Source: an uncultured Bacteroidota bacterium (GTDB lineage: Bacteria; Bacteroidota; Bacteroidia; AKYH767-A; OLB10). From it: a stretch of DNA of 64,000 bases. The stretch lies in assembly GCA_903847585.1 (NCBI GenBank), contig CAINEC010000067.1, positions 1 to 64,000 on the forward strand, written 5' to 3'. A program made the position numbers and the translations under genes. The notes beneath the pieces were generated by a model. That model saw only the letters and a program-made list of their open reading frames with translations, did no database searches and was not told the DNA's origin. Each line of letters begins with the position of its first letter. The first letter of the stretch is position 1. Below are positions 2,757 through 44,688 of the stretch, piece after piece.

Positions 2757-5700
2757 TTATTGTGATAATGAGAAACGAATTTCGATTCCTGTATTAATAT
2801 TTGATGTTGGATAAGATGTTGAGATAACTGGAGTATTAATGGTTTGCTCGTAGAAGAATCGCATATTTAATTTATCACTAACAGCATAATCGGCAGCAGC
2901 TTTAATAGAATATACATTTAATCCAGCTGTTGGCTGATTAACACCTTCTAACAATCGACGGATAATCGTTGAATTTCTTCTTGCGCTAAAATCAGCAGTT
3001 AAATTAAGTCCATTACCAGAAACTTTCTTCGATAAATTAAAAGGCAATTTGAATTTAGGCAAGCGGTATCCGAAACCTAAAGTGATTTCATTTCCTTTTA
3101 CTTCTGTAACCTGCACACCTGCATACGTCAATGACACGTTTCTGTCGCGCTTAAATTCAGCTCTTGTTTGAATATTATTTTTCCAGGTAACATCAACGCC
3201 AATTAGTGGAGCAAATTGTTCTACTAAAGAAACCTGACCGAATTCACGAGATGGAATAAAGTTGCCACTAATATCTTTTGCAGTTTGATATTTACCATCA
3301 ACATAATTTAAGTTTCTATTATAACTATTAACATTGAATGTCGAACGATAACTATGCGTTAAACTAACATTGTTAAACACCTTTTTGAATAAAGGCAATT
3401 TACCTAATCCATCATATGTTACACGCCAGTTAGGCAATGGAATTTTAGAAAATGGACTTAGTTTAACATCGTTTGGAGATTTGCCTGTGTAAGCTGAAAT
3501 AAAGGCCAACGTTAATACTTCTTGTTGTGTTCCACTATATCCGTCGTTGTAAATAATTCCGAATGTATCCGGTGCTGCAAAGCCAATTGAATTAGGATTT
3601 AACCCTGCTAATCGCTCAGAAATTATTTTACGATTTTTTGAAAACTCTTCAAAGACCGCATTTGAGTAAGTAGTTGGATCATCCTTTACAAATGCAGTAT
3701 TAATTGAAATAGTTGAAATACTAAAGTTTCCTGTTTCCGTCACACTTTGCGAATCAAATCGAGAACCATTCCAACGGAAAAACTCAGAATTATTGCGAGT
3801 ATACTGACGAGTAGCATTCAACTCAATTTTAAATCCATCAAATGGTTCTATCGAACTTCTTCCTGTAAAATTCTCATTGTAATTACGAGCAAACGAATTA
3901 TTCAAACTAGTATCAGTTGTAATCCAATTTCCATTTACCGCCTGCGGACGAATATCTTGTTGCGAACCGAATGCAAATCCGAATCCAGGTGAATTACGAT
4001 CTAAATCCTGACCTAACAATTGCGCATAATTAGAATATCCCGGTAATACAGTACCGTTAGTCTCGCTATAAGTAAACCCAACAGAACGAACACCCATAAT
4101 CATTTTACCTATAAAACGAACACCATCAGGAATAGCCTTAGGCTGTTTTACTTTAGGAGCTTTCATTCCAGGTATTGTATCCTTTGGATTTTTAGGTGGC
4201 TCGTTTTTAACACCCGGCTTCTTAGGAGGTTTAGGTGAATTAATTTTCTTTAAGAATGGAACTTTATTGTAAAGTGTAGTCAATACAAAATTTCCATTCA
4301 CCTGTTTGGTATTTGAATTTTGAATGGTATTTCCTGTTCGGGTATCAACACCAAATGCACCGGTTGTTGCATTCTGAACAAATTGCCCAGACTGCCAGCT
4401 ATAATTAAATCCGTATTTAACATTTACAGAAACCCAATCAGTAAGAGGGAATTTATTCAAAGGAACCTGATAAGAAACATTACCTGCTTGTGTGTATTGT
4501 TTATTTCTACCCAAGAAGAAATTCTTTCCGAAAATATTACTCTTGATGGAGTCTTTATCTTCTTGCGAGTCGATACGTCCTTCAGGCTCATCAATTACAC
4601 CATAATTGTTTGCATTAAAATCAAGTTTAATTGACTTCGTGATATCATACTTGAAATCGTACACACGACGCATGTCGAAATTTTTATTGAAGAAAGTATC
4701 ACGTACAATATCTGCATAGCCAGTATTATTACGATATAACTTTTCGCCGTATACACGCTGAACATCCATACGGAAATTCATACTCGTTGGAACAAGATTT
4801 ATATTTAAATCTTTTATGAGCTTTAAATATTTCGAATTTAAAAAAGTTACTTTCGAGAATGGAGTAATATACTTAGGTGTTGTATTATAATTATATCCAA
4901 TCGCACCTTTATGCGTTTTGATAATATCATACTCTATGTTGATATCGCGATGAAATACTTCATCATAGCCATAGGTGAAATTGAAGTTTTCAATATCATA
5001 CACTTTAGCTTTTGCACTACCACTTCTATTCTTCTTTACGTTGGTAAAGTTGATTCCTTTCGTTCGCGTATAATCTTGTGAACGCTTTTTAAATTCTTTT
5101 TTCTCAGCAGCAGTTTGGTTGTTCTCTAAAGCATCTGCAAAAGGAACGTCTTGATCTAATGGATCAAACTGCGGATTATTTACAACAGTACCATAGTTGA
5201 CATACATCGGAATATCGAGGTTTGCTTTCTCAGGTAAGAATTTACCAAGATACAATGTAGATGTAGCGTTGAAAGATGTCTCCGCACTTCTACGACGCTC
5301 ACTTACCTTCTGCTCCAATGTTCCAAATCCTACCGACTTATGAGTTCCTGTTAAAGCTACATTACCAATATCAGCAAGCTTTGCGGTTACACGCCCTGTA
5401 GCAGCCCATCCCCCTTTGCGATCAAAATCCGTTAAACGTAATTCATTCACCCATATCTCTGCACATTTCGACGTACCATCGTCGCCGTTAGGATTTGAAG
5501 GATCACGTTTTGGATTACGAACACCAATCATAATGGTACGAACACTACTTAACGAAGGATTACCTTTAATTGATAATATGTTTTTTCCACCTTCATCTTT
5601 TTCAGAATAAAGACTTGTAATATTGATTGCTCCTCCTGAGTTATCAATTACTGTATTACGAGACAACTTTAAATTAATAAACTTGTCTAATTCGAGATCA

Positions 5701-8700
5701 ATATTATTTGCGATCGGCCAAATAGCATATTGATCAGTTGCTCCCCATGCTGTTTTCTTTAACGGCACTTCGTATTCGTAATAATTTTCTGTAAAATCAT
5801 TACCCATTCTCACAAATACCGTCAAGTCATCATCCTGCAAATCATCTGCTGCACCAAACGATTCCGCGTGGATAAACATTTTTATTCGCTTATAAGCACG
5901 TAAATCAAGACCTAAGTTTTTAAATGCAGCGCGAGCGTCCCCATCTTCCAAATCACAAACTCTTAATGAAAGCGACTGCTCATTCAATCGTTGAAGAGTT
6001 GTTGAACCTATATTAGTTTCACGCTGAATATCCGGAGGTAAAACATATGGAATTGGTGTTCTAGCGCCATTCTCTTCAATACTTACTGAAGAAATGTCAA
6101 ACGATCCTAAATTCGGATCCCCTGGAATCACTTCACCTGCAGTGTGCATATCGTATGCGTATTTACGCCATTCTCCACGTAGAAATTCAAGCTTAGCAAA
6201 GCGAAGTGTCATCGGCTCATTGAAGCCCGTCATAAATGTTCTTATGAAACTGATTGTATTGAAGTCTTCAATATCGCCATACTTTGTTACATTGGGATTA
6301 GCTCCTTGAACATCACGAATAGGAATCTTAAATTGATACCAAGTAATATCCGCATTAGTTGAATTAGGTAAAGAAACATTACGAGTAATCTTATCTACAA
6401 TAAAATTCTTTCCTACTTCCATTTCACCAGGACGAAGAGAAACACGATATTCATAAAACTGCTCTGAACCTTCCTGATTAAAATCTTTATTTACGTCCTC
6501 CACATCTGGAATTGTAGTAGCAGAGGTAGAATAAGATTCTGTTGTTTGATTATCTGTAGGCGAGTTTCCGTCGGGATGACTATACTCTTTATATCGATCG
6601 AGGATACTTTTTTGTGCATTGTCATAATCCGTTCCACGATAGTAATGATAGTTATCTGACGAAGGATCTGATGATGCCTGCTGATATGCAGTTGGCGAAA
6701 CATTCGTACTTAACGCACTTAGATAATCTTGGAAAATAATCGACTCTTGACCATTACGTACACCATCTAAACCAACGTCTTGATATTGTCGCGAATCAGG
6801 ATTATTATCGAACGCATAAATAATCGGTGGTTGTGTTTTAGGTGTGAAACCCCATACAGTTTTATTCGCAGTGGATGTATCACCTGTTGAAGATAAACCG
6901 TTTTCGTACTCGAGTTTACCATCTTTCAAAATATCCTCGCTTACATTTCCAAGATTAAAATATAAATCACCACCCGTTGTATTTTGGCTGTTGGAATTAA
7001 AAGGATCCATCATCCAGAACTGAATAAATTCAATATTAGCTGCGTTAAAGTCGGTAGACTCGATACGACGCATAATTCCTCCCCAACGTGTAGCAGGATC
7101 TAATAATTTACCATCGGCATCTACTCCAGAAGAATAAGATGACGGTAATACGTCGTAGTTATAAGGTCCTCTTTCATCAGGATAGAAGGACATATTCATC
7201 ACCGGAAGAATTACGGTTTGGCCTTGAGGCGCCTCTTTGTTAGGGAAAATCTCTTTTTCTGGAATCTGACGAACAAGGTGATTAGAGATATCGTTATTGT
7301 TGATGTGAGCTGGCGTTACACCACTTTGATTTCTGTAGAATAATGGATCGATGATATACCAAGAAAACTTACCTCTATTAAATCCATAAGCTGTAGTAAC
7401 GGAATCAAGCCTTGCTTCTGCAAAACGACTTTGCGGCGTTGAAGATAACGTCCATGCACCTACGTTCGTCTTTAAATCGATAGTTGTTTGACTACCTTCA
7501 AAATCATCAATGTAAGCTGTACCATTCTTGCCAATTGCTTTACTATTACCTGGAATCAAATCAGCGAATTCACCACTAACCGTAATTTGCGAAGGTGTTT
7601 TTGTAGAAATACCTGGTAATTTATCAATCACCTTCGTTAACCATCTCGACTCACGCTTCCATGTTCCATCAACTCCCCAGATTGTATTTGCAATTGGCTC
7701 ATCACCAAAATTTACTTTCTGTGTAATTGGTCGCTCATTTAAACGCATGATAGTACCACCAACTACTAAATCTTTATTCACGACATAATCGAAACGAGAT
7801 CCAAATAACGTCTTCGACTGAATACTGAAGAGTGAATTACTCTCAAGAGAAATATTAATTGCCTGACCAGAATTTAAAATACTCTGATTAATGATTTTCA
7901 CACGACCTAAGTTATAGTCGACTGTATAGTCAATATTTTCTGTTAATGGTATTCCTCCAGCAGTAACCTTTACTGATCCTTCTGGAATATTTAATTGGTT
8001 CAAAGGAATATCAGAACCAAACTTACTCGAGTAACTTCCTTTTAAGCTGTATTTATTTTTCTCCGGAAATTGTAATGCAACAACCTTAGTGGAATCATAC
8101 AACACATCGTAGGCATATACGTCGGCGTTAGTCTGACTCACAAACTGACTTCTCAAATAGGAACCAAATGGTTCACGTACCGGGAAAATAATTCGTCCGC
8201 TATTACTGTTTATTGTTACCCCTTCAATAAAATCGTATTCGCCATCAGGACGAGGGTCATTATTGACATTTAACTTATCAAGATTAAACAAACGATTTAA
8301 CGCTTTCGCATACACGTTAGGTTCAGATGGCGTGACTGGAATATAATTTAAACGGTTACCAATTGTATCCACATAAAACAATACGTTCAGTTTAAAATCT
8401 TTTTTATCGATTTGAAATCCACCTAACGCATAAACGTTCTTCATCATCAAATCCCACAAAGGAAGCTTCGTATTTGTGATACGCGCTTTTAATAATTTCA
8501 ACATTAAAACTTTTGGAGGCTCAACTCCTGATGTAGTCAATTCTCCAACACGATACACTTGACCACCTACTGTATACTCATAAGCAACAGCCAATACTTC
8601 ATTTGTATTCAATGCCTGGTTAACAGAGATGTATCCTAAACGCGCATTGTATGTATACTCATTGGTATTTAACTTACGTGCATTCTGTACAACTTCATAA

Positions 8701-9992
8701 TCTCGTGATGCCGACAAATACGGGATAGAAGCCATCGTATTCTGCACCGAATTGATATCACGAATAGAAGGATAATTATTTAAAACATCTTGATATAACG
8801 TATTTGAGAGCGTATCTGAAGGATACGTGTTCCCTGAGCCTGGTATAGCAGGATTATAAGGAGCACTTTCAGCTAAATCAGAAAAACCAACTATCGTTCG
8901 CGTATTATCCGTTGAGTTATTTTTATTGGTCACCCAAACTTCTAAGCGAGTAATATTTACTGTTGAATTGATGAATGGCAGATCTTTTAAAGCATTATCA
9001 TAATTATCCTTAAAGTAATTTGCTAAGAAATAATGTTTGTTGGCTTCGTATTGATCAGCAGAAATATCAAAGTTTGTAGTTGTTGCTCCACCTTTTACTT
9101 CAATATTAGAAGACTTACCTTTTTGCTGAGTTAGGATAGACGTTACCGTTAGTTTACCAAATTTCAGCTGCGTTTTTAATCCGAATAAACTCTGGCTTCC
9201 CTGAATCAACTGCGTATTCAAAGGAAGGCTAACATTACCAGCTTCTAACTTCTGAATGATTTCATCTTCATAGCCGGTATACTCTAATTTGATTTGATTT
9301 TCAAAATCGAAACTTGCTTCTGTATTATAGTTGGTCGTAATTTTTAATTTCTCTCCGATATTACCAATTACATTCATTTGAATACGCTCTTTGAAATCGA
9401 AAGTGGTATTTCTTCTTTGACGTTCTGGTAAAGTTGGGTTATCGTAACGACTGATGTTAAGTCCGAAGCTTAAAGCAGCAGAACCTTGCGGGCGAATATC
9501 AATTGTATTTCCACCAAAGATTCTGTTGAAGGCTTCACCACCTACGTAAAGTCGCGGAGCAAAACCTTTTCGTTGGGTTAAGCTTTCTTCGTTTGATTTT
9601 TTCTTCCAATAATCCTGCGTACTCTTTTTGAACTGCGACTCTTTGAATTCTTCAAAAGTCATGTAACTCGGTCTTCTAAAATCAATATCTCCAATTTTCT
9701 CGAAAATATCGTATTCACGATTATCCGGATTATACTCTACTGTGGTTTTGATGTTAGAGGGATAACTTAGATATAGCGGACTTAAACTAGGCTGAGAACT
9801 GTAAGGGTCGGCATATCGATCACTAAATGGGTAACGGAGCATCACTGGAGTACCACCTGTAGTTGGGGTATCTCCTGGTAAAATGAAATAACTCTCATGA
9901 ATTTCAGCTAGTGCTGGACTATCCGATAAAAGCAGGGCAAAAACAACTAACAACCCCAGCAAAACAGAAATATAAAACCGGATATTTTTCAA
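2757..9992 (-). CDS. sprA: SprA, T9SS outer-membrane translocon / gliding protein
   Basis: A 2411-residue protein with an N-terminal hydrophobic signal (residues 5-29) and many beta-strand repeats throughout. SprA (Sov in Porphyromonas) forms the giant 36-strand outer-membrane channel that exports proteins bearing T9SS C-terminal signals. Family-typical segments are visible near the N terminus (YMTFEEF at about 110, and a PRLYVGGEAFNRIFGG stretch at about 150), and the C terminus ends in an aromatic beta-barrel strand. A proline/lysine-rich loop (KPPKKPGVKNEPPKNPKD) sits near residue 1920. The reading frame opens with TTG at 9990-9992: an in-frame TGA lies at 10005-10007, there is no ATG between, and the next in-frame ATG would delete the signal sequence. 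It would secrete the T9SS cargo encoded elsewhere in this window. Confidence 0.95.
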   Translation of the reverse strand: MKNIRFYISVLLGLLVVFALLLSDSPALAEIHESYFILPGDTPTTGGTPVMLRYPFSDRYADPYSSQPSLSPLYLSYPSNIKTTVEYNPDNREYDIFEKIGDIDFRRPSYMTFEEFKESQFKKSTQDYWKKKSNEESLTQRKGFAPRLYVGGEAFNRIFGGNTIDIRPQGSAALSFGLNISRYDNPTLPERQRRNTTFDFKERIQMNVIGNIGEKLKITTNYNTEASFDFENQIKLEYTGYEDEIIQKLEAGNVSLPLNTQLIQGSQSLFGLKTQLKFGKLTVTSILTQQKGKSSNIEVKGGATTTNFDISADQYEANKHYFLANYFKDNYDNALKDLPFINSTVNITRLEVWVTNKNNSTDNTRTIVGFSDLAESAPYNPAIPGSGNTYPSDTLSNTLYQDVLNNYPSIRDINSVQNTMASIPYLSASRDYEVVQNARKLNTNEYTYNARLGYISVNQALNTNEVLAVAYEYTVGGQVYRVGELTTSGVEPPKVLMLKLLKARITNTKLPLWDLMMKNVYALGGFQIDKKDFKLNVLFYVDTIGNRLNYIPVTPSEPNVYAKALNRLFNLDKLNVNNDPRPDGEYDFIEGVTINSNSGRIIFPVREPFGSYLRSQFVSQTNADVYAYDVLYDSTKVVALQFPEKNKYSLKGSYSSKFGSDIPLNQLNIPEGSVKVTAGGIPLTENIDYTVDYNLGRVKIINQSILNSGQAINISLESNSLFSIQSKTLFGSRFDYVVNKDLVVGGTIMRLNERPITQKVNFGDEPIANTIWGVDGTWKRESRWLTKVIDKLPGISTKTPSQITVSGEFADLIPGNSKAIGKNGTAYIDDFEGSQTTIDLKTNVGAWTLSSTPQSRFAEARLDSVTTAYGFNRGKFSWYIIDPLFYRNQSGVTPAHINNNDISNHLVRQIPEKEIFPNKEAPQGQTVILPVMNMSFYPDERGPYNYDVLPSSYSSGVDADGKLLDPATRWGGIMRRIESTDFNAANIEFIQFWMMDPFNSNSQNTTGGDLYFNLGNVSEDILKDGKLEYENGLSSTGDTSTANKTVWGFTPKTQPPIIYAFDNNPDSRQYQDVGLDGVRNGQESIIFQDYLSALSTNVSPTAYQQASSDPSSDNYHYYRGTDYDNAQKSILDRYKEYSHPDGNSPTDNQTTESYSTSATTIPDVEDVNKDFNQEGSEQFYEYRVSLRPGEMEVGKNFIVDKITRNVSLPNSTNADITWYQFKIPIRDVQGANPNVTKYGDIEDFNTISFIRTFMTGFNEPMTLRFAKLEFLRGEWRKYAYDMHTAGEVIPGDPNLGSFDISSVSIEENGARTPIPYVLPPDIQRETNIGSTTLQRLNEQSLSLRVCDLEDGDARAAFKNLGLDLRAYKRIKMFIHAESFGAADDLQDDDLTVFVRMGNDFTENYYEYEVPLKKTAWGATDQYAIWPIANNIDLELDKFINLKLSRNTVIDNSGGAINITSLYSEKDEGGKNILSIKGNPSLSSVRTIMIGVRNPKRDPSNPNGDDGTSKCAEIWVNELRLTDFDRKGGWAATGRVTAKLADIGNVALTGTHKSVGFGTLEQKVSERRRSAETSFNATSTLYLGKFLPEKANLDIPMYVNYGTVVNNPQFDPLDQDVPFADALENNQTAAEKKEFKKRSQDYTRTKGINFTNVKKNRSGSAKAKVYDIENFNFTYGYDEVFHRDINIEYDIIKTHKGAIGYNYNTTPKYITPFSKVTFLNSKYLKLIKDLNINLVPTSMNFRMDVQRVYGEKLYRNNTGYADIVRDTFFNKNFDMRRVYDFKYDITKSIKLDFNANNYGVIDEPEGRIDSQEDKDSIKSNIFGKNFFLGRNKQYTQAGNVSYQVPLNKFPLTDWVSVNVKYGFNYSWQSGQFVQNATTGAFGVDTRTGNTIQNSNTKQVNGNFVLTTLYNKVPFLKKINSPKPPKKPGVKNEPPKNPKDTIPGMKAPKVKQPKAIPDGVRFIGKMIMGVRSVGFTYSETNGTVLPGYSNYAQLLGQDLDRNSPGFGFAFGSQQDIRPQAVNGNWITTDTSLNNSFARNYNENFTGRSSIEPFDGFKIELNATRQYTRNNSEFFRWNGSRFDSQSVTETGNFSISTISINTAFVKDDPTTYSNAVFEEFSKNRKIISERLAGLNPNSIGFAAPDTFGIIYNDGYSGTQQEVLTLAFISAYTGKSPNDVKLSPFSKIPLPNWRVTYDGLGKLPLFKKVFNNVSLTHSYRSTFNVNSYNRNLNYVDGKYQTAKDISGNFIPSREFGQVSLVEQFAPLIGVDVTWKNNIQTRAEFKRDRNVSLTYAGVQVTEVKGNEITLGFGYRLPKFKLPFNLSKKVSGNGLNLTADFSARRNSTIIRRLLEGVNQPTAGLNVYSIKAAADYAVSDKLNMRFFYEQTINTPVISTSYPTSNINTGIEIRFSLSQ

Positions 9993-22177: not shown

Positions 22178-25100
22178 ATGAAAAAACTACTACTTGCAGT
22201 TATCTGCTGCATAGGTGCATTTTTGATGACCACTCAAACTGCATCGGCAACCCACTTAATGGGAGGTAATATGACCTATGAATATTTAGGACTTAATTCA
22301 GGTACTGGATTATACGATTACCGAGTTATTTTAAAAATTTATCGATTATGTGATCCAGGTAGTTCGGCATTACCAATCAGCACATCATTGGGAGCATACC
22401 AAGATAATCCAGGTAATCCAAACTTGAAACAAAGAGTTGCACTTGCAACACTTAACTTGATTTCACAGCAAGCAATCGTTCCTCCTAACGCTGGGGCTAG
22501 CTGTTCTTTTGCCCCAAACGTTTGTGTTGAAGAAGGTGTATATCAAACGACCATTTCTGTTCCTGCAAACTCGACAGGTTATTATTTTATGGCTGATCGT
22601 TGTTGCAGAAATAACAACATTGACAATTTAAATAATCCGGGAGCAACTGGTCAAGCTTATTATGCCTATGCTCCAAATCCAACAATTGATAATAATTCCC
22701 CAACATTTGCAGTGCCTCCGGTTCCATTTATTTGTGCAAATGATACAGTAAGTATTTTAAATCAGGCTATCGATGTAGATGGTGATTCGTTAAGTTATGC
22801 CTTTGTTACACCTTATGCGGGTATATCAAGTTCTGGATCTCCAAGTCCGACGGCACCAACTAACTACACATGGCCAATCCCCACAGTAACTTACGCAACT
22901 AATTTTAGTAACACTACTCCATTTGGTTTAAATAGTTATGCAGCGATAGATGCTACAACTGGCTTAGGTGTATATGTTTCTCCTAACCAAGGTTATTATG
23001 TAGTAGCAGTTGAAATAAGCGAATATAGAAATGGTGTTTTGATTGGCGTTTCTCGATTAGATATTCAAATCATCGTTATTACTTGCCCTACAAACCCAGC
23101 ACCTGCTATTTCTTCATCGCAAACAACCTACACAATACAAGAAGGACAAACTTTATGTTTTAATGTTGGCTATACAGACCCAAATGGGGATAGTTTGTTT
23201 TTAACTCACACAGGAGATATATTTAATTCAACACTTGTAAATCCAACAGCAACCTTAGCAAATGCCTCAGGTGATTCTGTGGTTAGTTCTCAATTCTGCT
23301 GGACCACTTCGTGTAATCAAGGTAGAACAACTCCTTATCAGTTTTCTACATCCGCAACAGATAATGGCTGTCCTGCGAAAGTGACAAATACTGTTTATAC
23401 AATCAACGTAATAAATACGCAGGCTCCAACAGTTATGAATGGTCCTGACACATTGTGTTTAAACGCAGCTACAGGAATTGCGTACTCCGTTGCATCAACA
23501 TCGGGATATACTTACCAATGGTTGGTAACAAATGGGACGCAAGTTTCAGGGACAAATACTGCAAGTGCTACAGTTAATTTTACATCATCTGGTTTAGCAA
23601 CTGTAAGTATAATAGCATTAAATCCATTTGGTTGTCCTTCTGATACATTAACAAAAACTGTATTTATCAAACCACAGCCATCAGCGATTGCGGGAAGTGA
23701 TGTTTCATTTTGTTCCGGCGGTTCTGCTACTTTAGGGACATCAACAACAAGTGGATATTCTTATTCATGGTCGCCTGCAACGAACTTAAGTAGTGGGACT
23801 ATTTCAAATCCTGTTGTTACAATTGGAAATACAGGCTCTACTCCTACATCTACAACTTATATTTTAACTACGACATTAAATGGTTGTACAAATAAAGATA
23901 CCGTTGTTGTTACTTCAAATCCTTTCCCTGTAGCAAACGCTGGAAACAATGTTTCTATTTGTAGTGGATCTAGTGCTCCATTAGGAACATTAGCAACTAC
24001 AGGATATACTTATTCTTGGACACCAAGTTCTGGACTTAGCAACGGATCAGTTTCAAATCCTGTTTTCTCATTAACAAATACTGGAAACACGCCTGATACA
24101 TTACAATATGTTGTACTTGTATCTAATGGATTTTCTTGTAGTGCAACAGATACAGTTCAGGTAATTGTTAGACCAGTGCCAACAGCAGTTGCTGGTATTG
24201 ATACTATCTTCTGTTCGGGAGGAAGTGGAACAATTGGATCAGGAACTACAAGTGGATACGCTTACAGTTGGTCACCTTCTACAGGATTAACATCACCAAC
24301 AGGAAGTAGCTCAACAGTATCATTAACAAACTCAACTACGGCTAATGATACCGTTAGTTATATCTTAACTACTACTTGGTTTGGATGTACAGCAAAAGAC
24401 ACTGTAAAAGTAATCGTGAAGCCTGTACCTACTGCTAACGCTGGAAGCAACTTGTATTTATGCTCAGGCGTAAATGGACAGTTAGGAACAATTTCAACAA
24501 GTGGTTATAATTATACTTGGACACCTGCAACGGGATTAAGTAATCCGAATGTATCTAATCCAACAGTTTCATTAACGAATAATGGAATTACAACAGATAC
24601 AATCTTTTATTTCTTAAATACTGATTTAGCAGGTTGTCAGAATAACGATACAGTTCGTGTTGTTGTTGCTCCAGTGCCTACTGCTAATGCAGGACTTGAT
24701 CAAACTTATTGCTCAGGACAAACAGTTACTATCGGTAGCGCTTCAACAAGTGGATATTCTTATTCATGGTCGCCAGCAACAGGTTTATCGTCTCCAACAG
24801 GAAGTACATCAACAGTAACTCTTACAAATACAACTACGGCTAATGATACCGTTAGTTATATCTTAACTACTACTTGGTTTGGATGTATCGACAAGGACAC
24901 TGTTAAAGTAATTGTTAAGCCAGTCCCAACTGCTAATGCAGGTAGCAATTTATACTTATGTTCTGGTGTTAGTGGTCAGTTAGGAACAATTTCTACGAGT
25001 GGTTATTCTTATACTTGGACACCTACTACAGGATTAAGTAATCCATCAATCTCTAATCCAATTGTTTCATTGAACAACAATGGAACTACAACAGATACTA

Positions 25101-28100
25101 TTTTCTATTACTTAAATACTGATTTAGCAGGCTGCCAGAACTACGATACTGTTCGTGTTGTTGTTGGCCCATTACCTACTGCTAATGCAGGATTAAATCA
25201 AACAATTTGTTCTGGACAAAGTGTTACAATCGGAACGGCTGCTACACCAGGATATACTTATTCATGGTCACCTGCAACAGGATTAAATAGTACTACTCTT
25301 TCGGATCCAACTTCATCAGCTACTAATTCAGGAAACTCGCCAATTACAATTACCTATTCTGTAATTGCTACCTGGTTTGGATGTAAAGACACTGCAACAG
25401 TTGATGTAACGATTAAGCCAGTTCCTGTTTCTGTTGCTGGAAATAATCAATTATTATGTTCAGGAAGCACTGTACAACTTGGAGGAACAACTACTAACGG
25501 CTACACCTATGTGTGGACACCTGGAACTAATTTAAATGATAGTTTAATTTCGAATCCTACATTAACTGACACAACAACTGGATTAACTCCTGATACATTG
25601 ATTTATTCTGTAACAACTGAATTAAACGGCTGTATCTCTTCAGATACTGTTCAAGTTGTTCTTAGTCCAGTGCCTACAGCTCAAGCAGGAAATGATATTA
25701 CATTCTGTTCGGGACAATCAGGAACTATCGGAGACCTTGCAATATCAAACTATAATTATTCATGGTCACCTGCAACAGGATTAGGAAGTACAAATCAATC
25801 TTCTACTTCAGTAACACTAACTAATAGTACAACAGCGGTTGTAACAAGCAACTACATCTTAACTACTAACTTATTTGGCTGTATTGATAATGATACAGTA
25901 GCAGTAAATGTTAAACCATTGCCTATTTCTGAAGCGGGTGCAGCTGTTTCATCTTGCGATGGCGACACTGTTATTATCGGAGCTAGCGCTACTAACGGTT
26001 ACACCTATGTGTGGACACCTGGAACAGGATTATCTTCCGATACTTCAGCAACTACACAAGTCTACATCAGCAATACAAGTGCAACAGCATCGACAGTTTA
26101 CTATACAGTAACAACGACGCTTAACGGTTGTACGACATCAGATAGCGTAGCGGTAACATCAAATCCGCTTCCAATAGTTACTGCACAGGCTGCTCCGGCT
26201 GCTATTTGTTTCGGACAATCAACGAGCATCACAGCATCGGGTGCAACATCATACAACTGGGTTGAATTAGCTAACCCTGGTGTTTCAGTTGGAACTGGAT
26301 CAACATTATCTGTTACTCCACAATCTACAACTACTTACATTGTTGAAGGAACAAGTTCTGCAAACTGTATTAACTATGATACCATTACGATTACAGTAAA
26401 TCCATTACCAATTGTACAAATCTTATCATCATCAACAGATTTATGTAATGGCGATACATTGACATTAACAGCGAGTGGTGCAACAACTTATAACTGGATC
26501 GATTTAGCTTCTGGTAATTCATTAGGTAGCTCATCAACAATTGACGTGTTCCCTTCAGCAAATGCAAGCTATGCTTTAGTTGGTACAGATGGTAATTCAT
26601 GTGTTAATTCTGATACTATTAATGTTACTGTTAATCCTGCGCCAACTATTAATGCGATTACAGGAACCTTATCTGTTTGTCCTGGTGCAAATGGAGTTCA
26701 ATATTGGGTTGTAAATCCAAATACAACATCAACCTATAACTGGTTTGTTACAAATGGAACAATTGCAGCAGGTCAAGGAACAGACACTATTAGTATTGAT
26801 TGGCCAGGGACACAAAGTCCTGCCATCGTTTCTGTAATTGAGGTTACTGATTTAGGATGCCCTTCTGATTCCATTCAATTACCTGTTAACATCAATGTAG
26901 TGTTAGACCCAATTGCTCCAACTGGTGCAAATACATTATGTGCAGACCTTGCTCAGAACATTCCTTATTCAACAACCAATACACCAGGTTCAAATTATAC
27001 ATGGCACGCACAAGGTGGTTCAATTGTAAGCGGTGATGGAACAAGCAATGTAATTGTTGATTGGAATGTAACTGGTCCGCAGGTAGTAGCTTTATGGTAT
27101 GATGAAAGCAGTACTACAATTGATACTGTTTGTGCGGGAGTTTCAGATACATTATACGTTACTATTAATCCTGTTCCTGTTACGAGTGCAATCACTGGAA
27201 ACAATGCTATTTGCGTTGGTGATTCAGGAACATTTAACGTTGTGAACACAACAGGAAGTACTTATAGCTGGAGTATCACAGGAGGAACATTAAATGGCAC
27301 TTCTACATCTAACACGACTTCAGCAACTTTAACTACCGTACCAGGTGCAACTGTAACAGTTCAGGAAACTAATTCATATGGATGTATCGGAACTCCTGTA
27401 ACCTATAATGTGACAGTAAATGCGCTTCCTAACGCTGAAGCAGGTACGAACGATACTATTTGCAACGGAACAACAACAGTATTAAATGCTAGTGGAGGTA
27501 CATCTTATGCATGGACAACAAACAGCACATTAGATAACTTAACCATTGCGAATCCGATTGCGAATCCTAGTTCAACTACAACATATTATGTTTTAGTTAC
27601 TGATGGTAATGGTTGTAAAAATTCAGACAGTGTAACAGTAGTAGTTAATCAATTACCTAATGTTACAGCAAGTAGCAATGCGGCTATCTGCATTGGCGCT
27701 TCAACAACTATCACTGCCTCTGGTGCAACAAACTATAGCTGGTCGCCAGCAACAGGATTAGACAATAGCAATATTTCAAATCCTACAGCAAATCCTACAA
27801 GCACAACTACCTATGTTGTGATTGGAACTGATAACAACGGATGTTCTAATTCAGATAGTACAACAGTTACTGTTAATCCACTTCCAACAGCAGTTGTTTC
27901 TACTGGTGGTATTATCTGTAATGGTGGAAGCATTAGCTTAACAGCGAGTGGTGGAACAAGCTATAGCTGGTCACCATCAACAGGATTAAACAATGCAACT
28001 ATTGATAATCCTATTGCATCGCCTACTACAACTACTACCTATACAGTAACTGTTACAGATGCTAATGGCTGTACAGATGATGACCAAGTTACTGTTGATG

Positions 28101-28633
28101 TAAACGACCAACCAGTTGCATCGTTTGCGATAGACAGTGCAATAACTGTAATTGGATGTGAAGGCGTAGAAATTACCTTAATCAACAATAGTACATTCGC
28201 ATTAAACTACGAATGGAACTTTGGCGATGGAACAACTTCTGTCGATGCTAATCCTAATCACATTTTTGCATTTGGATCATCAAATGGAATTACATTAATT
28301 GCATATAACAATCAATGTTCAGATACATTAGTAACTCCATTTAGTCCTGGTCAGTTAGCTGATTACTTCAGTAACATTCCAAATATCTTCACTCCTAATA
28401 ATGATGGAATCAACGATTGCTTCAATCTTGGAGCAAATACGAAGTTTGAAGATTGTAGTTCTTGGGAGATTTATAATCGCTGGGGAACAAAAGTCTTTAC
28501 AAGCAGTACAGCTCAAACATGCTGGAACGGTAAAAAAGACAATACGGGAGAAGATCAACCAGCTGGTACTTACTTCTACATCTTAAAAGCGGGCAATGCC
28601 GATTACAAAGGAACGGTAATGCTGAATCGCTAA
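22178..28633 (+). CDS. Giant repetitive surface protein, T9SS type B signal
   Basis: A 2151-residue protein. It has a signal peptide (1-24), then an N-terminal domain starting HLMGGNMTYEY that is common in Bacteroidota surface proteins (to about 305). After an immunoglobulin-like region come ten copies of an approximately 83-residue repeat (about 502-1327), each with an AG-x4-5-C-[SD]-G start, a [WY]-[ST]-[PW]-x-[TS]-G core and a GC-x-x-x-D end. Shorter repeats of about 75 residues follow, two near 1330-1490 and three near 1750-1985. Then come a PKD-like domain with FGDGT and a gliding-type C-terminal domain (IFTPNNDGIND, WEIYNRWG, PAGTYFYIL). The type B signal implies SprA-dependent export, likely as an adhesin; the ligand is unknown. 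Monocistronic. Confidence 0.92.
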   Translation: MKKLLLAVICCIGAFLMTTQTASATHLMGGNMTYEYLGLNSGTGLYDYRVILKIYRLCDPGSSALPISTSLGAYQDNPGNPNLKQRVALATLNLISQQAIVPPNAGASCSFAPNVCVEEGVYQTTISVPANSTGYYFMADRCCRNNNIDNLNNPGATGQAYYAYAPNPTIDNNSPTFAVPPVPFICANDTVSILNQAIDVDGDSLSYAFVTPYAGISSSGSPSPTAPTNYTWPIPTVTYATNFSNTTPFGLNSYAAIDATTGLGVYVSPNQGYYVVAVEISEYRNGVLIGVSRLDIQIIVITCPTNPAPAISSSQTTYTIQEGQTLCFNVGYTDPNGDSLFLTHTGDIFNSTLVNPTATLANASGDSVVSSQFCWTTSCNQGRTTPYQFSTSATDNGCPAKVTNTVYTINVINTQAPTVMNGPDTLCLNAATGIAYSVASTSGYTYQWLVTNGTQVSGTNTASATVNFTSSGLATVSIIALNPFGCPSDTLTKTVFIKPQPSAIAGSDVSFCSGGSATLGTSTTSGYSYSWSPATNLSSGTISNPVVTIGNTGSTPTSTTYILTTTLNGCTNKDTVVVTSNPFPVANAGNNVSICSGSSAPLGTLATTGYTYSWTPSSGLSNGSVSNPVFSLTNTGNTPDTLQYVVLVSNGFSCSATDTVQVIVRPVPTAVAGIDTIFCSGGSGTIGSGTTSGYAYSWSPSTGLTSPTGSSSTVSLTNSTTANDTVSYILTTTWFGCTAKDTVKVIVKPVPTANAGSNLYLCSGVNGQLGTISTSGYNYTWTPATGLSNPNVSNPTVSLTNNGITTDTIFYFLNTDLAGCQNNDTVRVVVAPVPTANAGLDQTYCSGQTVTIGSASTSGYSYSWSPATGLSSPTGSTSTVTLTNTTTANDTVSYILTTTWFGCIDKDTVKVIVKPVPTANAGSNLYLCSGVSGQLGTISTSGYSYTWTPTTGLSNPSISNPIVSLNNNGTTTDTIFYYLNTDLAGCQNYDTVRVVVGPLPTANAGLNQTICSGQSVTIGTAATPGYTYSWSPATGLNSTTLSDPTSSATNSGNSPITITYSVIATWFGCKDTATVDVTIKPVPVSVAGNNQLLCSGSTVQLGGTTTNGYTYVWTPGTNLNDSLISNPTLTDTTTGLTPDTLIYSVTTELNGCISSDTVQVVLSPVPTAQAGNDITFCSGQSGTIGDLAISNYNYSWSPATGLGSTNQSSTSVTLTNSTTAVVTSNYILTTNLFGCIDNDTVAVNVKPLPISEAGAAVSSCDGDTVIIGASATNGYTYVWTPGTGLSSDTSATTQVYISNTSATASTVYYTVTTTLNGCTTSDSVAVTSNPLPIVTAQAAPAAICFGQSTSITASGATSYNWVELANPGVSVGTGSTLSVTPQSTTTYIVEGTSSANCINYDTITITVNPLPIVQILSSSTDLCNGDTLTLTASGATTYNWIDLASGNSLGSSSTIDVFPSANASYALVGTDGNSCVNSDTINVTVNPAPTINAITGTLSVCPGANGVQYWVVNPNTTSTYNWFVTNGTIAAGQGTDTISIDWPGTQSPAIVSVIEVTDLGCPSDSIQLPVNINVVLDPIAPTGANTLCADLAQNIPYSTTNTPGSNYTWHAQGGSIVSGDGTSNVIVDWNVTGPQVVALWYDESSTTIDTVCAGVSDTLYVTINPVPVTSAITGNNAICVGDSGTFNVVNTTGSTYSWSITGGTLNGTSTSNTTSATLTTVPGATVTVQETNSYGCIGTPVTYNVTVNALPNAEAGTNDTICNGTTTVLNASGGTSYAWTTNSTLDNLTIANPIANPSSTTTYYVLVTDGNGCKNSDSVTVVVNQLPNVTASSNAAICIGASTTITASGATNYSWSPATGLDNSNISNPTANPTSTTTYVVIGTDNNGCSNSDSTTVTVNPLPTAVVSTGGIICNGGSISLTASGGTSYSWSPSTGLNNATIDNPIASPTTTTTYTVTVTDANGCTDDDQVTVDVNDQPVASFAIDSAITVIGCEGVEITLINNSTFALNYEWNFGDGTTSVDANPNHIFAFGSSNGITLIAYNNQCSDTLVTPFSPGQLADYFSNIPNIFTPNNDGINDCFNLGANTKFEDCSSWEIYNRWGTKVFTSSTAQTCWNGKKDNTGEDQPAGTYFYILKAGNADYKGTVMLNR
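23681..26160 (+). repeat. Ten tandem coding repeats of about 248 bp
   Basis: Ten in-frame copies encoding roughly 83 residues each, within the giant surface protein. Copies 3-4 and 5-6 form a duplicated pair with a 498 bp period. Between them the 57 bases at 24333-24389 and 24831-24887 are identical, although flanking bases differ at many synonymous sites. Confidence 0.85.
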
Positions 28634-42219: not shown

Positions 42220-42756
42220 TTAATTCAATTTTATTTTTTTCAGTGCGCTCCAACGTTCGTCCTTTACTTCTTCATCTTTACTTTCTTCTGTATCATTTTC
42301 TGATATAGAATCCAGTGCTTCATTCACACATCCAGGTTCATCATTGATGTCGGGGTGCGAAGGACTATATGGAACTTCCAGCGTGACAAAGTCATAAATA
42401 TGATTATTTAAAACCAACTCACTTGCTGAATTTGCAATATGTATTGTATCGATGTCATCATCTTCGGCATTCGGACTTTCAACCATTCGAATTAAAAGAT
42501 GCTGATGTGCATTCACAGGCATGGTGAAATTCTCGAGACATCGGCCACATTCTACCTCTACCTCTCCATTTATTTCAATGTCCAGCTCCATGGTTGTTGA
42601 TTTGTGTAATACTACATCAACTTCCACATTCGCTTTGTGAATAAGACTATTCGGATACTGCTCAAAGAACTCATCCCCTATATGAAAGTTAAATTCATGA
42701 ATTCCAGCGGGTAAGCTGATGAACTTAACAATTAAATCTTTATTGTGCGTAGCCAC
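42220..42756 (-). CDS. DUF177/YceD-family protein
   Basis: A 178-residue protein of the YceD/DUF177 family. In other bacteria the protein is linked to 23S rRNA maturation and ribosome assembly. CGRCLENF, near residue 70, is the conserved cysteine pair, and PGCVNEALDS near 140 carries a third. The C terminus ends in a conserved RWSALKKIKLN. The gene begins with GTG at 42754-42756, because an in-frame stop lies just upstream and the next ATG would delete much of the first domain. It leads the rpmF-plsX-fabH transcript. Confidence 0.9.
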   Translation of the reverse strand: MATHNKDLIVKFISLPAGIHEFNFHIGDEFFEQYPNSLIHKANVEVDVVLHKSTTMELDIEINGEVEVECGRCLENFTMPVNAHQHLLIRMVESPNAEDDDIDTIHIANSASELVLNNHIYDFVTLEVPYSPSHPDINDEPGCVNEALDSISENDTEESKDEEVKDERWSALKKIKLN

Positions 42757-43077: not shown

Positions 43078-44124
43078 ATGAAGCGTTCCATCTTAGCCGT
43101 AATGATCACATTTCTATTCTTGAATTCGAACGCTCAAAATGTATTGACAAAAGATGGGGTGGTTTTAGGCAAACGAAGTGATTTTATTAAATCATGTGCG
43201 AAGGGAGCAGATAAGAAGTTGATGAATTTCAACGGGATAGAAATTGAAACTGAAAAGTATTGTTCTTGTGTGTGCGACAAATTAATTCCGGAGATTAACA
43301 GTTGGGAGATGCAAGAGGCGGCCAAAGAAAATAAAATGACCGACTTATTCATGAAAGATGAAAATTTTAAAATCTTGATGGGATGTTTAGATGGCAACTA
43401 TAAAATTTCGGACAACTATACTTTTGAAAAAGGAAATAATTCTGATTTGACAATTCAATCTGGAATAAAGAACTGTGTATTAGAATTAATGAGTGATCCA
43501 GAAGCGAAAGAAATTTGGACCGAAGAAATGGCTAATCAATACTGTAGTTGTGCTATTGAAAAATTGTTTAAGTCAGGATACACCTACAAAGACTTAAAAG
43601 AAATCGAAAATGAAAATAGTCCTATTTACAATGAAATTGCTCTACCATGTGTAACAGAAGTTTTTAATAGTGGCATCAAAAAGAGCACATCGGAAAGTAA
43701 GAACGCCTATGTTCCTGCGGATATAATTGGTGGCGGAAAATCATCGAGCGTTCAACTAACAGACTATTTAGGCAAAGGTTTTAAAATAAAAATTTCTATC
43801 GACGGTGTATCACGTTATTATTTGTTTGATACAGGAGCTACTGATTTAACCATTGATAGCGACACTGAAAGAGAGTTGCTTTTAAATGGAACGATTAAGA
43901 GAGCCGACTACATTGGTGAGAAAGAATATGAACTAGCCGATGGTAAAACTGTTACAGGACAAATTGTAAAAGTGAATAAAATCACCATTGGTAATTATAC
44001 CGTAAACAATGTAACCATTGCGGTTTTAAAGAACGGCTCTTTACTTTGTGGTAAAAGCTTTTTAGATAAGTTTAAGAAATGGGAGTTGAATAAAGACAAA
44101 ATGGAATTAGTCCTTTACAAGTAA
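43078..44124 (+). CDS. Secreted retropepsin-like protein, two Cys domains
   Basis: A 348-residue protein with a signal peptide (about 1-19). Two similar helical Cys domains follow: C40, C62-S-C64 with C66, C103; and C133, C156-S-C158, C191. The spacing C-x21/22-C-S-C-x32/38-C is repeated. The C-terminal third is a retropepsin-like aspartic protease fold: active site D251-T-G-A254 (FDTGATDLTI) and a hydrophobic flap-end SLLCGKSFLDKF near 325. Such clan AA proteins act as dimers. The combination is unusual in my experience; the Cys domains may bind metal or form disulfides in the periplasm. An upstream ATG (43024) adds 18 residues before the signal and is rejected. Substrate unknown. Confidence 0.8.
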   Translation: MKRSILAVMITFLFLNSNAQNVLTKDGVVLGKRSDFIKSCAKGADKKLMNFNGIEIETEKYCSCVCDKLIPEINSWEMQEAAKENKMTDLFMKDENFKILMGCLDGNYKISDNYTFEKGNNSDLTIQSGIKNCVLELMSDPEAKEIWTEEMANQYCSCAIEKLFKSGYTYKDLKEIENENSPIYNEIALPCVTEVFNSGIKKSTSESKNAYVPADIIGGGKSSSVQLTDYLGKGFKIKISIDGVSRYYLFDTGATDLTIDSDTERELLLNGTIKRADYIGEKEYELADGKTVTGQIVKVNKITIGNYTVNNVTIAVLKNGSLLCGKSFLDKFKKWELNKDKMELVLYK

Positions 44125-44127
44125 ATT

Positions 44128-44688
44128 TTATTCTGCTGTATTTCCTTGATTTTTATTTTTCTGTTTTATTCGCTCGACTATTTCAGCGATAATAAAAACA
44201 GGATCCTCATCAGACTGAAATAGTTTTTCAAATGCCTCAAAACTAAACATACATTCATCGTAATGTGTCCCTAACATTTCATGCATCAATGATGGAGAAT
44301 GTATGCACATTGGTGTATCTATTTTTAAAATTAGACAGATTATTTTTGAATCAGGATCAACGAACACATTACTGAAGCGCAATTTGTTGTTAATGTGAGA
44401 AGCCATCACCATCGCATCCCTCATTCTTTCCTCTGGAATTCCATCCATTATGACCCCACGATAAAAATAAGAACCACCATCAATATAATAATCCATATAA
44501 AATGAATGGGACTCAGTGATTCCAAAAGAAATTTTAATGTAATGCGTTTTTTTATTTTCTAAATACTTAAAATCTTTTGCAATTAAATAATCAACAATAT
44601 TATCATGAATATAATCTGGCCATTTTAATGGATTATTAAATAAACGATAGCGTTTAATATCCGCTTTAATTTTTTTAAAGAATTTCAT
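44128..44688 (-). CDS. Uncharacterised cytoplasmic protein
   Basis: A 186-residue protein without a signal peptide or transmembrane segment. I do not recognise it with certainty. The alternating beta strands and helices with SHINNKLRFSNVFVDPDSKI in the centre faintly recall YbjN-like or secretion-chaperone-like folds, but this is only a hint. The C-terminal 25 residues are rich in Lys, Asn and Gln. It is convergent with the retropepsin gene (3 nt between stops) and has its own -7 element. It may be a lineage-specific gene. Confidence 0.6.
   Translation of the reverse strand: MKFFKKIKADIKRYRLFNNPLKWPDYIHDNIVDYLIAKDFKYLENKKTHYIKISFGITESHSFYMDYYIDGGSYFYRGVIMDGIPEERMRDAMVMASHINNKLRFSNVFVDPDSKIICLILKIDTPMCIHSPSLMHEMLGTHYDECMFSFEAFEKLFQSDEDPVFIIAEIVERIKQKNKNQGNTAE

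Follow-up and report, generated by a model that had tools for sequence, protein, structure and literature searches.

Does the gene at 43078-44124 of the window encode a genuine and conserved joining of two cysteine domains to a retropepsin-like protease, and what would the cysteine domains do for such an enzyme? The window is the whole stretch of 64,000 nucleotides that was analysed, from an uncultured bacterium of the Bacteroidota.

Layout of the gene and its retropepsin-like half

The reading frame on the plus strand was translated into 348 amino acid residues with the sole stop at its end. The gene stands alone, flanked on both sides by genes of the opposite strand (Table 1). Its N-terminus, MKRSILAVMITFLFLNSNAQ, has by eye the look of a signal peptide and contains no lipobox, in line with the sequence-only reading, which had taken the protein as secreted. 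Cysteines are found at positions 40, 62, 64, 66, 103, 133, 156, 158, 191 and 324. The spacings noted earlier, C-x21-C-S-C-x38-C for repeat 1 and C-x22-C-S-C-x32-C for repeat 2, were found unchanged in the translation, and two more cysteines were added. One is C66, which extends the CSC of repeat 1 to CSCVC; the other is C324, within the LLCG of the protease half.

Table 1. Coordinates of the gene's parts and of its two neighbours
Feature	Position in the window	Strand	Basis
yceD, upstream	42220-42756	opposite to the 43078-44124 gene	
Apparent signal peptide, SPase I type	43078..43137	+	translation read by eye
Cys domain 1, C40-x21-C62-S-C64-x38-C103, fifth Cys C66	43195..43386	+	profile of protease-free copies and alignment
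Cys domain 2, C133-x22-C156-S-C158-x32-C191	43465..43689	+	profile, alignment and helical model
Linker from Cys domain 2 to the protease, poorly conserved	43690..43752	+	alignment; low confidence in the full-length model
Retropepsin-like aspartic protease domain, D251-T-G-A, psi-loop-like L322-L-C-G325	43753..44121	+	Pfam, NCBIfam and alignment
Downstream gene, without Pfam match	ends at 44128	opposite to the 43078-44124 gene	

The claim of a retropepsin-like domain with DTGA was borne out by Pfam. PF13650 (E 1e-9, 39.4 bits, cut-off 24.3) and PF13975 (E 7.8e-9, 36.4 bits, cut-off 28.2) were both matched above their cut-offs and were the only Pfam matches of the window protein at E up to 1. 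As judged by these two families, the protease half belongs to the bacterial retropepsin-like domains. TIGR02281 was not reached, with 52 bits for the window protein and 48 bits for the homologue G483 against a cut-off of 57.95. The D[TS]GA motif, the hydrophobic-hydrophobic-Gly pattern and the length of about 105-120 residues are shared with the bacterial domains of TIGR02281, PF13650 and PF13975, whereas the window protein differs from them by its two additional N-terminal Cys domains and by its score below the TIGR02281 cut-off.

Retropepsins are common in the class, where 79 of 149 genomes had a PF13975 match at E 1e-5 or better; the window's genome had one such match. A PF13975 match was also found in the control genome of Caulobacter vibrioides. 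PerP of Caulobacter has a role in PodJ processing. It is named as a retroviral-type protease of bacteria in one paper (PMC4140852). Among the 42 retropepsin-bearing frames, which include two duplicates, nine carry two retropepsin domains per chain (L101, L103, L107, L110, L111, L117, L119, L125 and L127) and recall single-chain pepsin-like enzymes. D[TS]G is present in both copies in six of these tandem frames and in one copy only in three.

Is this half a protease at all? In the alignment of the nine full-length members described below, D251, G253, A254, L323 and G325 are invariant and the catalytic Asp is kept as D-[TS]-G-A in every one. This, together with the two Pfam scores above cut-off, argues against the retropepsin-like half being a binding fold of an envelope protein with no protease, a reading which we consider very unlikely indeed. 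It would fit the TIGR02281 score below the cut-off and the lack of D[TS]G in one domain of three tandem relatives, and also in the matched stretch of the single-domain relative L109; to our knowledge, no member has a known protease activity, which likewise counts in its favour.

Recurrence of the arrangement in the phylum

The full-length order was found in nine genomes, namely the window's genome, G483 (L071, a Chitinophagales MAG), G640, G806, G927, G946, G992, G937 and G921. Since G806 and G927 nearly duplicate each other, there are closer to eight independent cases. A further copy of the arrangement, in G459, is interrupted by the contig end. The other eight full-length members are 29-48% identical to the window protein, and the pairwise identity in the alignment is 22-94% with a median of 32%. 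Among the nine, 25 columns are invariant; eight of these are cysteines and three lie in the D[TS]GA motif.

Of the 12 N-terminal regions aligned, 11 have all eight domain cysteines. These 11 are the nine full-length members, G459 and G741, which has no protease; the exception is a Hymenobacter relative, which was set apart. In all 11 the gap between the third and fourth Cys of repeat 2 is x32, whereas the other gaps vary, with x20-23 in repeat 2 and x18-21 and x38-43 in repeat 1. The Cys spacing is thus largely kept in the homologues, a check that had been set beforehand.

The arrangement is sparsely distributed. In the order of G806 the whole arrangement was found in six of 100 genomes and a protease-only match in five, and in the order of G640 it was found in one of 42 genomes, with one additional protease-only match. 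In the window's own order, four of 42 genomes had any match and the Cys domains were present in the window's genome only. Four of 395 genomes sampled from the phylum had a match; apart from that in the window's own genome, these matches covered the protease alone. This rarity, one in 42 genomes of its own order and the window's alone in 395 of the phylum, counts against the explanation that we prefer. The same applies to the gene neighbourhood: among five relatives inspected by eye, no shared neighbourhood pointing to a partner was seen. Operon logic was set aside, as the neighbours of these five differ.

Genome contigs searched with the window protein alone gave no relative among 50 pattern matches, and with alignment A4 two loci were obtained from 131. 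Plasmids gave three records, of which only that of Hymenobacter extends past the protease half and its linker. A phage origin was rejected; viral contigs gave no confirmed relative among 5 and 160 pattern matches. A literature search, with most subscription papers outside its scope, returned no paper that we recognised as describing the arrangement. What was observed directly is the order of the domains, the fact that this order returns in several lineages of the phylum, and the invariance of the cysteines and of the catalytic Asp. Since the same combination occurs in distantly related bacteria of the phylum, the Cys domain is real and conserved, and the arrangement of two Cys domains with a retropepsin was confirmed as real, conserved and rare.

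The Hymenobacter relative (L097:2422-3930, WP_243520725.1) is encoded on a plasmid and annotated as energy transducer TonB. It consists of worn Cys domains, a DSGA retropepsin and then a TonB C-terminal domain, and no other record of the plasmid collection covers 80% of it. It was counted as Cys-linked by judgement, on the basis of its CxC and the order of its parts and not of its profile score. The whole-protein alignment retains four of its eight domain cysteines and treats Cys 4 of repeat 1 as one of those lost. Judged by the stretch that the profile matched, C75 and C112 would correspond to Cys 3 and 4 of repeat 1, in which case Cys 1 and 2 would have been lost together. In repeat 2 only Cys 1 is lost, which leaves one cysteine unpaired and counts against a disulfide staple.

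The Cys-linked proteases fall into one common grouping. A first tree, of 49 retropepsin domains, placed the five that are Cys-linked on one side of a branch with 99/98. Ten long-branched or second-copy rows were then removed and 11 new rows added, and in the resulting tree of 50 domains ten Cys-linked domains, Hymenobacter included, were on one side of a branch with 100/98. These ten were together in 100% of 200 bootstrap trees and grouped apart from 40 other retropepsin domains sampled in the same phylum. Some of the rows had been collected by means of the Cys profile and of the profile made from the window family itself; because this sample is not blind, one origin of the Cys-linked retropepsins is allowed rather than proven by the tree.

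Within the 50-domain tree, the window gene grouped with G992 and G946, which are from another order, at 99/95. Five of six congeners of the window genome had no match and the sixth had a protease-only match. Transfer from another order, repeated loss or incomplete genomes may lie behind the scattered presence of the gene. Three of the six congeners are at most 85% complete, and the GC content of the gene, 33.9% against 35.6% for the window, is ordinary.

The cysteine domain inside and outside the protease family

The sequence-only reading could put no name to the duplicated Cys domain, and it stays nameless, since both repeats are below the cut-off of all Pfam and NCBIfam models. The only Pfam match of repeat 2 is at E 0.094, far under the cut-off. 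Among the 17 members of alignment A3, one had a Pfam match at E 0.0014 and one an NCBIfam match at E 0.004, and no Pfam or NCBIfam family was common to the members.

The profile search proposed for the Cys domain recovered both repeats, with no Pfam or NCBIfam name attached. The profile was built from 21 copies of the Cys domain, taken from proteins that showed no protease; as these were found via window-derived profiles they are not a blind set. The window repeats scored 17.1 and 33.5 bits with it, against a maximum of 9.8 bits among 2000 shuffles of residues 20-200, showing that the Cys repeats are more than chance. For repeats 1 and 2, respectively, this profile gave 18.6 and 33.3 bits in L071, 14.5 and 26.6 in L094 (G741), 10.4 and 25.3 in L064 (G459), 15.4 and 18.3 in L084 and 11.4 and 19.2 in L092. 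The Hymenobacter repeats scored 4.7 and 2.4 bits, below the best shuffle. Within the window's genome no second copy of the protein was found at E up to 10 and no further copy of the Cys domain, the best other hit being a 20-column match at E 0.18.

The domain had also been described as helical. This was upheld for domain 2, the model of which had a pLDDT of 85.6 and a pTM of 0.73 from a three-row alignment, but not for domain 1, which was poorly modelled in the full-length model (two-row alignment, pLDDT 45.7, too poor for use). Domain 2 is predicted to form helices at 2-10, 12-15, 20-36, 41-48 and 53-68, with the cysteines at 4, 27, 29 and 62. The CxC of residues 156 and 158 (27 and 29 in the model) lies inside helix 20-36, and the outer cysteines 4 and 62 lie in the first and the last helix. 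Since the CxC and the outer cysteines are in different helices, the two CxC cysteines could be joined to separate helices. A search of the PDB by sequence with the Cys profile gave a best E of 0.45. With the domain 2 model, none of 56 Foldseek matches was at E 0.001 or better (best E 3.1), and the best of 119 chains in VIA-align had a Z of 5.6 with an rmsd of 2.1 over 55 aligned residues, which is low for a helical model. In these sequence and fold searches, no PDB entry appears to match the Cys domain convincingly.

The Cys domain was also found outside the protease. It occurs as a solo domain, for example in L009, L061, L062, L065, L077 and L078, as a double domain in L057, L058, L063, L085 and G741, and together with TPR in L081, where one TPR model scored slightly above its cut-off. 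In L072:5857-8658, from a Chitinophagales MAG, it begins a TonB-receptor-like barrel protein of 934 residues, with plug and barrel Pfam scores slightly under their cut-offs. G058, from the same class as the window's genome, has two adjacent small secreted-looking genes with one Cys unit each.

Of the 385 genomes searched in the class, 16 were matched by profile A3 at E 0.001 or better, including the window's genome as well as G058 and G074, both of which had fed the profile. When one solo domain was searched against 149 genomes from the order of G058, it matched 12 of them at E 0.01, among them G058 itself. The initial searches with the domain, which covered 296 genomes of the phylum, gave mostly chance matches, with 32 genomes at E 1 for the N-terminal half and 15 genomes at E 0.1 for profile A2, and none at E < 0.001 besides the window's genome and G058.

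Proposed role of the cysteine pair

We propose that the protein is an exported, disulfide-stapled adaptor pair that steers a dimeric periplasmic retropepsin-type aspartic protease, and we hold this to be probable, if by a modest measure. The protein would be exported, most likely to the periplasm, as its apparent signal peptide indicates. Each small helical domain would be stapled by two disulfides, connecting the CxC of the central helix to the single cysteines of the first and last helices, as the model of domain 2 would allow. The protease half would form a homodimer with one DTG Asp contributed by each chain, and the Cys pair would act as an adaptor, positioning the protease at a substrate or partner within the cell envelope. 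Since the four cysteines are a fixed set in 11 of 11 sequences, Hymenobacter apart, and the domain occurs alone or on unrelated proteins, a folded adaptor would fit better than a protease-specific switch. Counting against this explanation are the odd number of cysteines in the mature chains of G483, G937 and G741, and VKOR, which was not found in the window's genome.

The nearest solved structure by sequence is APRc/ApRick of Rickettsia (PDB 5c9d), which was matched at E 0.0029 with profile A5 and at E 0.038 with the window protein alone. APRc is described as having a membrane-embedded arrangement with a soluble catalytic domain (PMC4140852), whereas the window protein carries the Cys domains and an apparent signal peptide. 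Mutation of the catalytic Asp is reported to impair the self-processing of APRc (PMC4140852). The Cys pair could likewise be a self-cleaved pro-domain, which keeps the protease inactive or helps its folding until the protease cuts the variable linker. The linker is indeed poorly conserved in the alignment and of low confidence in the full-length model, but no conserved cleavage site was seen in it by eye, G741 has the Cys pair and a similar N-terminal motif without a protease, and the Cys domain forms free-standing genes elsewhere. We consider a pro-domain doubtful.

The sequence-only reading had suggested a metal or redox switch, in which the redox state of the Cys domains or of C324, or metal loading, would set the protease on or off. 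This found no direct support and is, in our judgement, unlikely. No His is conserved in at least 9 of 11 sequences across the Cys region, and for this reason a metal site was dropped as the leading reading, although five acidic columns of the region are kept in at least 9 of 11 and are potential ligands; the Cys domains may hold an all-Cys metal site. Proteins without the protease share the Cys domain, and the fifth cysteine C66 is present in only five of 11 sequences, G741 without a protease among them. C324, beside the psi-loop Gly, is kept in seven of the nine full-length members and is thus not universal, and a cysteine at the column of window residue 294 is found in four. A redox role keeps some plausibility because all nine have at least one cysteine in the protease domain and because the twin cysteines of SprF and PorG are reported to exchange disulfides with GldK in the Flavobacterium periplasm (PMC12635249).

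SprF has its periplasmic Cys-Xaa-Cys in the C-terminal tail, and twin cysteines are a feature of SprF and PorG in gliding and type IX secretion (PMC12635249). The window protein resembles them in having probable periplasmic twin cysteines in a member of the Bacteroidota, but its CxC pairs at 62/64 and 156/158 are in the N-terminal half and within four-Cys helical domains. Elsewhere in the window, an SprA-type gene (PF14349) at 2757-9992 suggests that the window's genome has type IX secretion. Encoded at 22178-28633 is a protein of 2151 residues that has Ig-like and PKD-like domains together with a CHU_C signal for type IX secretion.

RloA/RimB of Pseudomonas would be a useful model for the window protein as an exported retropepsin. 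RloA has a signal peptide, a dimeric retropepsin-like fold and a DTG active site, and Pfam classes it among the zinc proteases, as stated in its description (PMC12239564). In contrast, the window protein had no match at E up to 1 to the Pfam family given for RloA there, only to PF13650 and PF13975.

By analogy with the twin cysteines of SprF and PorG, the Cys domain, C-x~21-CxC-x32-C, might serve generally in the periplasm of the Bacteroidota as a thiol-disulfide docking module, its CxC exchanging disulfides with a partner. We regard this as a long shot. If it were true, a covalent but reversible link would tie the protease to an envelope machine, where it would be brought to its substrate.

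Taken together, our results define a conserved group of retropepsins that carry a Cys domain nameless in Pfam and NCBIfam. The domain recurs in exported-looking proteins of the Bacteroidota, TonB-linked ones included, and a name and a structure for it would aid the annotation of hypothetical secreted proteins and lipoproteins. Once named, the Cys domain would give a testable handle on the role and the placement of bacterial periplasmic retropepsins.
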